In this document: positions 1-53,042 of the stretch, one piece after another
How positions within the stretch are numbered: the stretch's first letter is position 1
How the letters are laid out: every line of letters starts with the position of its first letter
NCBI GenBank assembly: GCA_024398715.1
Contig: JAKSIP010000004.1
Location: 1-64,000 of the forward strand
DNA from: Bacteroidaceae bacterium
GTDB lineage: Bacteria > Bacteroidota > Bacteroidia > Bacteroidales > Bacteroidaceae
Length of the DNA: 64,000 nt
Reading direction: 5' to 3'
Program-made: the position numbers and the translations under genes
Notes under the pieces: model-generated
Told to the model about the DNA's origin: nothing
The model's database searches: none
Seen by the model: only the letters and a program-made list of their open reading frames with translations

Positions 1-94
1 CGGTGTTCGCAAATGAAATCTCCTGAAATATAAACACGTTCAGAAGTTCTTTTGGACAGGCGTGGTGTTCGCACGGTGTTCGCAGAGCATGAAA
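1..94. other. non-coding stretch with three GGTGTTCGCA copies
   Basis: No convincing gene is visible here. The ten-base word GGTGTTCGCA occurs three times, at 2-11, 64-73 and 75-84, the last two in tandem with one base between. The stretch may be the edge of a larger repeat region that continues to the left of the window. Confidence 0.4.
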
Positions 95-95
95 A

Positions 96-123
96 AAGCA
101 CTTACGTTTTAGCGTAAGTGCTT
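96..123 (-). terminator. rho-independent terminator behind tRNA-like unit
   Basis: An 11-bp perfect stem (96-106 with 113-123) with a six-base loop is followed on the minus strand by a run of T. It lies just downstream, in minus-strand sense, of the tRNA-like 3' end at 136. It is the last of four such unit-plus-terminator arrangements. Confidence 0.75.
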
Positions 124-135
124 GATTTTCAGAGT

Positions 136-192
136 GGGCCATCTAGGACTTGACTGCGAAGCTGATGAGGACCCCGAAGCGGGTCCGAATAA
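136..192 (-). repeat. tRNA-like unit, 3' part (split copy)
   Basis: Read on the minus strand this segment ends in CCTAGATGGCCC plus A, the same 3' end as the real tRNA at 858-931. Its inner 44 bp (149-192) recur identically at 546-589. Joining 136-148, one copy of the 44 bp and 590-605 gives exactly 73 nt, the length of the tRNA body. The unit therefore looks like one tRNA-like element split by the insertion at 195-542. The core carries a perfect GGACCC/GGGTCC stem. Confidence 0.6.
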
Positions 193-194
193 GG

Positions 195-542
195 CTCAGT
201 GGAAATTTAGTAGGGGAATTAATTTCTCCGAAAATGATCCATTTGTATATTGCATATTACAACCAACCGCGCCCCGCACTGCAAAGCACATTTGGTACGA
301 AAAACCGCCTCCTGCCGTACCAACCGCACTGCGAACCGCATTCCGTACGAAAAAACGCCTCTTACCGTACCAAATGCACCGCAAACCGCATTCCGTACGA
401 AAAACCGCCCCCTGCCGTACCAACCGCGCCCCCGCATTTGGTTGAATTTCATACACAACACATACTCCACAATACACTTGCCTCCTAATAATACTACTAC
501 AAATCATCCTATTTTGTTCTTTCCCACTAAATTTCCACTGAG
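195..542. mobile_element. MITE-like element with terminal inverted repeats, no transposase
   Basis: The ends 195-211 and 526-542 are perfect 17-bp inverted repeats (CTCAGTGGAAATTTAGT on the left), extended by a near-match GGG. The 348-bp interior has no credible gene but contains a 50-bp tandem repeat. The element is bracketed, with 2-3 bp between, by a perfect 44-bp direct repeat (149-192 and 546-589). That is far longer than an ordinary target duplication, so recombination between neighbouring copies is as likely as transposition. Confidence 0.5.
295..430. repeat. 50-bp tandem repeat, about 2.7 copies, palindromic subunits
   Basis: The word GTACGAAAAA recurs at 295, 345 and 395, giving a 50-bp period. 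Each period has about 27 bp running from GTACGAAAAA to CCGTACC, whose ends pair, and a linker of about 23 bp rich in AACCGC. The layout (palindrome plus linker, 50 bp) is close to that of the 52-bp array at 52285-52522, although the sequences differ. Confidence 0.75.
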
Positions 543-545
543 TCG

Positions 546-605
546 CTTGACTGCGAAGCTGATGAGGACCCCGAAGCGGGTCCGAATAACCGAAGGTGAA
601 AGCTC
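546..605 (-). repeat. tRNA-like unit, 5' part (split copy)
   Basis: This is the second half of the split 73-nt unit. On the minus strand it begins GAGCTTTCACC, against GGGCTTT in the true tRNA and in the intact unit at 749-821. It then carries the 44-bp core shared with 149-192. Its 3' end is replaced by the inverted-repeat element that starts at 542. Confidence 0.6.
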
Positions 606-617
606 TATAAACAAAAA

Positions 618-637
618 ATCCGCCCCGAAGGACGGAT
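618..637 (-). terminator. terminator hairpin behind tRNA-like unit D
   Basis: The stem ATCCG/CGGAT with an inner CC/GG and CGAA loop is followed on the minus strand by TTTTTT. It sits three bases beyond the tRNA-like 3' end at 641. Confidence 0.65.
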
Positions 638-640
638 AGT

Positions 641-711
641 GGGCCATCTAGGGGGCGGGGTGTGGGGTGTCCCCACTAACAAAGCGAAGCGGTTCAAGCC
701 CGTAGGTCCAC
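641..711 (-). repeat. degenerate tRNA-like unit D
   Basis: The minus-strand 3' end is again CCTAGATGGCCC plus A, but the body is GC-rich and unlike the other units. It contains a GTGGGG/CCCCAC palindrome at 661-675. At 691-711 a diverged, oppositely oriented copy of the tRNA 3' end is visible (minus strand GTGGACCTACGGGCTTGAAC). About 71 nt lie between the two ends, so the unit keeps tRNA length. Function unknown. Confidence 0.4.
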
Positions 712-712
712 A

Positions 713-746
713 AAAAAAGGAGAAGCAATTCCGCTTCTCCTTTTTT
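713..746 (-). terminator. strong terminator behind tRNA-like unit B
   Basis: A 14-bp perfect stem (713-726 with 733-746) is made of AAAAAAGGAGAAGC and its complement around a six-base loop. It ends in a T-run on both strands, so it could act bidirectionally. It directly follows the tRNA-like 3' end at 749 in minus-strand sense. Confidence 0.8.
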
Positions 747-748
747 GT

Positions 749-821
749 GGGCCATCTAGGGCTTGACTGCGAAGCTGATGAGGACCACGCAGTGTGTCCG
801 AATAACCGAAGGTGAAAGCCC
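749..821 (-). repeat. intact 73-nt tRNA-like unit B
   Basis: On the minus strand the unit begins GGGCTTT and ends TCAAGCCCTAGATGGCCC plus A. Both ends are identical to the CAT tRNA at 859-931, and the length is the same (73 nt). The middle is unrelated: there is no D-arm consensus, no anticodon arm and no 5' half of the T stem. A hairpin of the form GGAC-CAC/GTG-GTCC takes its place. The split unit has GGACCC/GGGTCC at the same position, so the stem is kept while the bases change. This is a tRNA mimic or pseudo-tRNA; no role is known to me. Confidence 0.65.
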
Positions 822-834
822 TGCCAATAAAAAA

Positions 835-854
835 GCCGTTCCAATCGGAACGGC
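835..854 (-). terminator. terminator of the CAT tRNA
   Basis: An 8-bp perfect stem, GCCGTTCC (835-842) with GGAACGGC (847-854) and a four-base loop, is followed by TTTTTT on the minus strand. It starts four bases after the tRNA 3' end. Confidence 0.85.
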
Positions 855-857
855 ATG

Positions 858-931
858 TGGGCCATCTAGGGCTTGAACCTAGGACCTCCAGATTATGAGT
901 CTGTTGCTCTAACCAACTGAGCTAAAAGCCC
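858..931 (-). tRNA. tRNA with anticodon CAT (Met, or Ile2)
   Basis: A full cloverleaf can be drawn on the minus strand: acceptor GGGCTTT pairing with ATGGCCC (with one U-U and one G-U), a D arm with AGCTCAGTTGGTTAGAGC, anticodon loop CTCATAA, T arm CTAGG-TTCAAGC-CCTAG and discriminator A at 858. No CCA is encoded. The anticodon is CAU. Without the identity bases being tested it could be elongator tRNA-Met or the lysidine-modified tRNA-Ile2; it is not an initiator by any clear sign. It has its own promoter upstream and terminator downstream. Confidence 0.93.
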
Positions 932-52234: not shown

Positions 52235-52284
52235 GTTTTATACGGGGACACCAATTCTATTAAGTTCGATTGGAAATATTTCAT

Positions 52285-52522
52285 CCTTCGCGTTTTCCCG
52301 CCTTTTTGCGAAGGTTGAGCCGTTTTTTGCCGCCATCCTTCGCGTTTTGGGTCATATTTGCGAAGGTTGATTTGTCGTTGCTTTTCATACCCCGCTTACA
52401 GACCCTTCTGGCGGTGGTCTCATTGCTAAGCTCATTTCAACCTTCGCGTTTTAGACCTTTTTTGCGAAGGCTGAAGCAATTTTCCTTGCCATCCTTCGCG
52501 TTTTAGACCTGTTTTGCGAAGG
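52285..52522. repeat. 52-bp-period array of 30-bp palindromic units
   Basis: Four 30-bp units of the form CCTTCGCGTTTT, eight or so variable bases, TTTGCGAAGG start at 52285, 52337, 52441 and 52493. The steps are 52, 104 and 52 bp, so a fifth unit expected at 52389 is lost or degenerate. The CCTTCGC/GCGAAGG ends pair. The 22-bp linkers are related to one another (TTGA or CTGA at the start, GCCAT at the end in two). Confidence 0.85.
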
Positions 52523-53042
52523 TTTGTATATTATGCTGGGTGGCGGAACATTATAATACCTTTTGCAAGTGGCGCCACCGTCAACAAAGATTGCACACTG
52601 AATTCATTTGCAAATACCGAGCCAATATTGCAACCAAATCACCTTTAGCCGCGATTCCGTGCAATATTGGCACAGGTAACCATACGCACTAACTGCGAGT
52701 GCAGAGACCCCCGAAGAGTTGCAAGCCGCCGATGAGTGCAGGTAACCATACGCACTAACTCAGAGCGTCCTACACCACATATATCCAAATGGATGGTACT
52801 ATGCCGCCTGCAATGCCCGCCTGCAATATTGCCGAAAAATGAATTTTGCAGTGTGACACGGACCCTTTGCGCTGTCGCGGTGCGCTGTCGCGCTTATTAT
52901 ACGGGGACACATTATTCCTGCTGCGCAGTCATGAAGTCAGGCTGCACCTCAGCATAGTTCAAGCGCATGCTTGACTCTGCGTTCGGTTTGCACTGACGTG
53001 CATTTTTTTTGCCAAAATAACCGAAATGTTGCGGTAAATGTG
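52523..53042. other. gene-free stretch with direct and inverted repeats
   Basis: No credible gene is seen. Repeats include a 22-bp direct repeat, CAGGTAACCATACGCACTAA and two more bases, at 52673-52694 and 52739-52760. There is a 12-bp inverted repeat GCCAATATTGCA / TGCAATATTGGC (52621 and 52660), and a tandem GCGCTGTCGCG near 52870. The word TATACGGGGACAC at about 52899 also occurs at about 52239. The end near 52930-52990 resembles an intergenic sequence that I recall recurring in Bacteroidales genomes; this is from memory only. Confidence 0.55.

Follow-up and report, generated by a model that had tools for sequence, protein, structure and literature searches.

What are the repeated tRNA 3' ends that trail the tRNA-Met gene at the very start of this contig: RNAs that imitate a tRNA, remnants of integrated elements, or units of another kind? 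The window, meaning the whole 64-kb stretch of DNA analysed, covers the opening 64 kb of contig C34 in a 2.1-Mb MAG (G000, 98% complete), the contig beginning at position 1, and all of the genomes compared are MAGs. A preliminary description had seen a CAT tRNA on the minus strand followed by an array of tRNA-like units, each with its own terminator. ARAGORN confirmed a tRNA-Met at 857-931, and the repeated 3' end, CCTAGATGGCCCA, occurs exactly four times, at 858-870, 748-760, 640-652 and 135-147, with no further copy in the 64 kb when two mismatches were allowed. The parts of the locus are as follows.

857-931, minus strand: tRNA-Met (CAT, elongator type; ARAGORN; Rfam RF00005, 65 bits), the host gene and the source of the repeated 3' end.
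829-854, minus strand: terminator T1, part of candidate cassette 1, hairpin GCCGTTCC/GGAACGGC plus a T run, within the 109 bp missing from G027.
746-822, minus strand: unit B, a complete T-arm/core unit (core model, 46.3 bits).
816-822, minus strand: R'' box AGGGCTT of unit B, complementing its own T-stem 3' strand AAGCCCT at 7/7 positions.
804-814, minus strand: reduced L''/L' hairpin of unit B, CACC-TTC-GGTT, made of the left T-stem strand and its complement (compare L013, L018, L040).
766-803, minus strand: conserved core of unit B, ATTCGG-hairpin-CCTCATCAGCTTCGCAGT, entering the T loop between T55 and C56.
748-765, minus strand: R' half of unit B, CAAGCCCTAGATGGCCCA, a copy of tRNA-Met C56 to A73.
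713-746, minus strand: terminator T2, the native tRNA terminator, an inverted repeat that directly follows the tRNA in G027.
654-712, minus strand: bulk of 'Unit C', ancestral downstream flank common to G027 (L023), with no core.
640-653, minus strand: tRNA 3' end stub CCCTAGATGGCCCA, opening the second candidate cassette (exact-repeat search).
613-637, minus strand: terminator T3 of the second candidate cassette (read from the sequence).
546-606, minus strand: first part of unit D, with R'' AGAGCTT (600-606), CACCTTCGGTT, core (550-587) and CAAG (46.9 bits).
195-542, no strand given: 348-bp repeat bounded by 20-bp inverted ends (CTCAGTGGAAATTTAGT) and containing three tandem units of ~50 bp each, lying between two core copies.
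135-192, minus strand: second part of unit D, with a second core copy (153-190) and the tRNA 3' end CAAGTCCTAGATGGCCCA (135-152) (42.7 bits).
1-134, minus strand: left end of a further element targeting tRNA-Met, carrying a hairpin at 96-123 and repeats TGCGAACACC, truncated by the contig start at position 1.

Two genuine units follow the tRNA-Met of the window, namely B (746-822) and the split unit D (135-192 plus 546-606), and B matched the two halves of D with E values of 1.6e-19 and 3.8e-18, far beyond chance. 'Unit C' of the preliminary description, at 641-711, proved illusory: the ~55 nt with which it opens, after T2, are plain flanking sequence that G027 carries without any tRNA 3' end, and it holds no core. 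This flank (654-712) opens with an inverted fragment resembling the 3' end of another tRNA, GTGGACCTACGGGCTTGAACC. Nor is the length fixed at exactly 73 nt as had been proposed, orthologous units spanning 66-87 nt. A hairpin followed by T residues does come after the tRNA and the units, but the last of the supposed terminators (92-123) is part of the other element's left end. This end lies right behind an intact tRNA-Met in three genomes (G016, G024 and G017), while in G018 it follows a tRNA 3' end cut by the contig border (loci L030, L033, L036 and L055).

The split of unit D is caused by the dispersed 348-bp repeat at 195-542, which is probably an insertion sequence: a 100% identical 348-bp copy lies elsewhere in the same genome (G000:C18:5810-6157), partial relatives occur on contigs C12 and C56, and its end sequence was found near several contig ends of G034. 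A 44-bp target duplication was ruled out as the origin of the doubled core around the insert, because the full-length copy on C18 has no such 44-bp flanking repeat.

Aligning the units on the core revealed a constant order: the T-arm reverse complement comes first, a short spacer separates it from the left strand of the T-stem, the core follows, and after it come the right strand, continuing into the remainder of the tRNA 3' end, and a terminator. The core itself, WTTCGG-hairpin-CCTCAWCA(A)GCTTMGCAGT, is ~30-38 nt long and is inserted between T55 and C56. The middle of each unit had been described as devoid of T-stem features, but most units keep both T-stem strands, which are split by this conserved T-loop insert and preceded by the T-arm reverse complement. 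In 12 of the 13 units the left part scored best (or equal best) against the T-arm reverse complement of its own tRNA, above the tRNA 5' half. Units behind tRNA-Asn open with AGGACTT and those behind tRNA-Met with AGGGCTT, tracking the respective T-stem sequences AAGTCCT and AAGCCCT, and pairing of the unit 5' end with the T-stem was 7/7 in all Asn units and most Met units. Inverted boxes in the order R''-L''-L'-R' are present, most clearly in L013, L014, L016, L018, L019 and L040; L020, L032 and unit D of the window look decayed. Both borders are formed by a direct target repeat, the tRNA sequence from C56 to its end, and the 109-123 bp interior consists of tRNA 3' end, terminator and palindrome/core only, former element content being absent. 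The junction in tRNA-linked units reads GTCAAGY or GTCGAGY.

This anatomy does not support small RNAs posing as tRNA ends. The opening GGGCTTT, taken earlier for a tRNA-like 5' end, matches the T-arm complement and not the acceptor stem, and the resemblance is a coincidence of tRNA-Met, because the 5' GGGCTTT of this tRNA happens to look like the complement of its T-stem. Acceptor pairing of the unit 5' end was 5-6/7 for Met units (6/7 for real tRNA-Met by the same count), but only 4-5/7 behind tRNA-Asn, 2/7 behind tRNA-Thr, and 1/7 and 4/7 behind tRNA-Gly, against 7/7 in real tRNAs. ARAGORN and Rfam gave no tRNA-like call in the units, detecting true tRNAs only. The failed acceptor pairing at the non-Met tRNAs and the variable length led us to reject tRNA mimicry. 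A hammerhead ribozyme, suggested by an antisense CTGATGA..GAA in the window, was also rejected, since relatives read CUGUUGA or CUUGAUGA, breaking the invariant CUGANGA, and no Rfam match was obtained.

Random decay alone does not account for the array, as the preliminary description rightly held: relatives have it next to tRNAs too, and a portion of it covaries. A covariance model trained on 8 cores scored tRNA-linked cores at 31-70 bits. In the core helix 93.9% of cells were paired and two-sided changes occurred at 4 of the 6 pairs; the observed covariation score was reached by 0/500 shuffles, and slid controls collapsed. A further unit behind tRNA-Gly, in G453, brings another stem sequence, GGAC/GTCC. 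Based on these data, we concluded that selection acts on the structure of the core hairpin. Only one G-U was counted among the standard pairs, which is a weak hint that the constraint acts on DNA rather than on RNA.

A rival source of such covariation would be a structured RNA with a function of its own, transcribed together with the tRNA or by read-through from it, such as a tRNA-derived small RNA or a 3' processing or termination element. Terminators follow many units, there is no evident hairpin between tRNA-Thr and its unit in G443, and several copies away from tRNAs lie between co-directional genes, all of which such an RNA would accommodate. It sits poorly with the terminator that adjoins most units on their upstream side, whose U-run stops 0-8 nt short of the units behind tRNA-Met and tRNA-Asn; this gap leaves no room for a promoter and so argues against an independent RNA gene. 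The failure of acceptor pairing outside Met, the missing Rfam match, the precise absence of units in close relatives and, as a weak hint, the single G-U pair point the same way. We consider a structured RNA quite unlikely, and think it reasonably probable that the unit is an insertion at the DNA level and not a gene for an RNA.

Comparison of orthologous loci showed clean presence and absence. G026 differs from G029/G020 by exactly 123 bp, comprising a tRNA 3' end, terminator and unit, with upstream sequence 83-85% identical, and G000 differs from G027 by exactly 109 bp, corresponding to T1 plus unit B; the flanks align on both sides, upstream identity being 83-89% over both comparisons. Because relatives either carry the unit behind other tRNAs or cleanly lack it, a tiny tRNA-targeted insertion unit accounts for the locus better than a tRNA-mimicking RNA. 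Direct repeats of ~19-22 bp form the borders, so that such filled and empty loci could arise by site-specific recombination or by plain slippage, and empty sites need not signify mobility, loss by slippage being allowed by the repeats. On a RibF tree, itself weak, units at tRNA-Met were scattered, with 5 changes against a mean of 5.4 after shuffling. The same terminator/unit combination faces different downstream genes (L011/L015; L013/L014), which fits movement and equally fits rearrangement of the flanks. Among the MAGs compared, no excised or circular cassette was caught.

Units were found behind tRNA-Met, tRNA-Asn, tRNA-Gly and tRNA-Thr, as well as in L071, where two copies stand in tandem at a tRNA 3' end of unassigned identity, and the carriers are Ca. 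Colenecus and related Bacteroidaceae/Prevotellaceae MAGs. The core pattern is present in 12 of 37 genomes of the genus, to which G013 adds one with a single change. Outside the genus, a pattern scan of 84,980 genomes placed tRNA-linked units in three Prevotellaceae MAGs, and one more relative carries them. The preliminary description had proposed looking for the unit next to tRNAs across Bacteroidales: relatives do have it behind several tRNAs, but the order-wide model search was essentially empty, 295 genomes yielding, beside the genome of the window, one weak match at a locus without a tRNA. Searches of phages, plasmids and viral contigs gave no match to the core, and a literature search found nothing on the motif or an equivalent.

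Recurrence at several tRNAs bears on a further explanation, in which the array is ordinary attR debris: larger tRNA-Met-targeted elements would have inserted in tandem and lost their interiors, leaving 3' ends with terminators. The preliminary description had offered remnants of integration at tRNA 3' ends as its conventional alternative, and this came closer than mimicry, but alone it leaves unexplained a gene-less core common to several tRNAs. The tRNA-Met gene is indeed an integration hotspot, with tyrosine-recombinase islands in its T loop in G004 (L052, G004:C1, about 5 kb) and G003 (L021, G003:C79, contig-cut) and the other element end in several genomes, and the direct repeats and displaced terminators fit. 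Tandem accretion and CIMEs at tRNA 3' ends are known as remnants of ICEs and IMEs (PMC5704250). Like the units, CIMEs have tandem tRNA 3' ends beside an intact tRNA, lack integration genes and share a hotspot with integrase-bearing elements; they differ in being decayed islands with gene content, whereas the units are similarly small (~105-125 bp), contain neither gene nor gene remnant, and have a covarying core and a palindrome rebuilt from the T arm of each host tRNA. One core at several different tRNAs is likewise unexpected for debris, and none of the larger islands that were read ends in the core. We regard attR remnants as rather unlikely.

With moderate confidence we favour the reading that tRNA genes have received, at their 3' ends, gene-less cassettes with a folded attachment-like site, and that these cassettes move or are deleted through the direct repeats of the T loop. 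Each cassette consists of a tRNA copy from C56 to the end, usually a terminator, an imperfect T-arm palindrome arranged R''-L''-L'-[core]-R', and the core, which has the covarying hairpin and ends in GCAGT just before C56. On insertion into the T loop the tRNA would stay intact and gain a terminator, which would keep its transcription tidy, while the old 3' end and terminator would be pushed downstream behind the core; repeated insertion would build an array. Cassettes may be gained and lost when the direct repeats of the T loop recombine; the folded palindrome, in box order formally like attC, would then be the putative recombinase site, and the driver acting in trans might be a tRNA-targeted tyrosine recombinase or XerC/D. 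We propose this recombinase step only tentatively: no recombinase linked to the core was found, although an enzyme acting at tRNA-Met is plausible in the genus because tyrosine-recombinase islands use this gene in G004 and G003. Elements of the tycheposon type use the 3' part of a tRNA as attachment site, restore the tRNA, and carry genes and a recombinase. The cassettes share the first two properties but have neither genes nor a recombinase.

Integron cassette arrays and their attC sites served as a comparison system (review PMC8946536). In both cases arrayed units each end in an imperfect palindrome with the order R''-L''-L'-R', only structure is conserved in the hairpin stem, and insertion occurs at one end of the palindrome. 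In contrast, the integron core site is GTTRRRY and the junction here GTCRAGY, and the cassettes here are gene-less with boxes that correspond to the T arm of the host tRNA. Integron cassettes proper were rejected, given the wrong core site and the absence of any integrase (TIGR02249) above the curated cut-off in the 15 unit-bearing genomes (0/15). It is conceivable, if rather speculative, that the cassettes are a new kind of gene-less recombination cassette, in which a folded site resembling attC takes its boxes from the T arm of the host tRNA, so that one core can be re-targeted to different tRNAs by T-arm matching. We file them among tRNA-targeted non-autonomous elements, with a CIME-like position and an attC-like layout. 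If the proposal is correct, tRNA genes host, besides genomic islands, minimal cassettes whose attachment palindrome derives from the host tRNA, which would provide a small natural system for how tRNA-targeted recombination switches target and would bear on whether integron-like folded sites arose outside integrons. It would also caution against taking repeated tRNA 3' ends for tRNA-like RNAs.

Genus g9 and a few other genomes have intergenic cores without a tRNA context. On the right these cores, too, end in GCAGT, mostly followed by CA, but they lack the T-arm palindrome, so that a single mechanism may not cover both kinds of core. These copies, often inside CATAATT tandem repeats, would suit a miniature element that depends on single-strand transposases of the REP/RAYT or IS200/IS605 type, with the two small hairpins of the core as its ends, as would the d(GCGAAGC) motif on the antisense strand. 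REPs and REPINs are likewise very short, palindromic, non-autonomous repeats, some copies of which are intergenic. The cassettes differ in their low copy number per genome, in a core without a GTAG or CGTC tag, and in the absence of a Y1_Tnp match in the window's own genome (G000, 98% complete); the last two points led us to reject REP identity. Such an element would also leave the T-arm-matched palindrome unexplained, and we judge it very improbable. The non-tRNA cores of genus g9 (L087-L098, L115, L118) and G445 (L101-L104) lie in CATAATT-type tandem or long inverted repeats; several are in sense between co-directional genes, and two sit just upstream of an atpG-like start.

Some further loci depart from the common anatomy. 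In L053 (G031:C19) and L054 (G013:C73), tRNA-Met 3' halves beginning at the anticodon (ACTCATAATCTGG...) have the core in the T loop without a T-arm complement, which we read as a displaced tRNA half where the core inserted or recombined. In G002:C141 (L022/L056), tRNA-Met is followed by 151-bp units in tandem that have a left part (AGGGCTTTCACCTACGGTTAT) as in the other units and a different, longer hairpin core, the array running past the contig end. In L017 (G008:C105), a long palindrome at the tRNA-Met terminator is made up of this terminator, the tRNA 3' end before it and a perfect copy of that end in inverted orientation, and L028 holds a similar inverted tRNA fragment. Within the window, the region behind tRNA-Asn at 52280-52530 contains repeated CCTTCGCGTTTT...TTTTGCGAAGG motifs that by eye are unrelated to the units.
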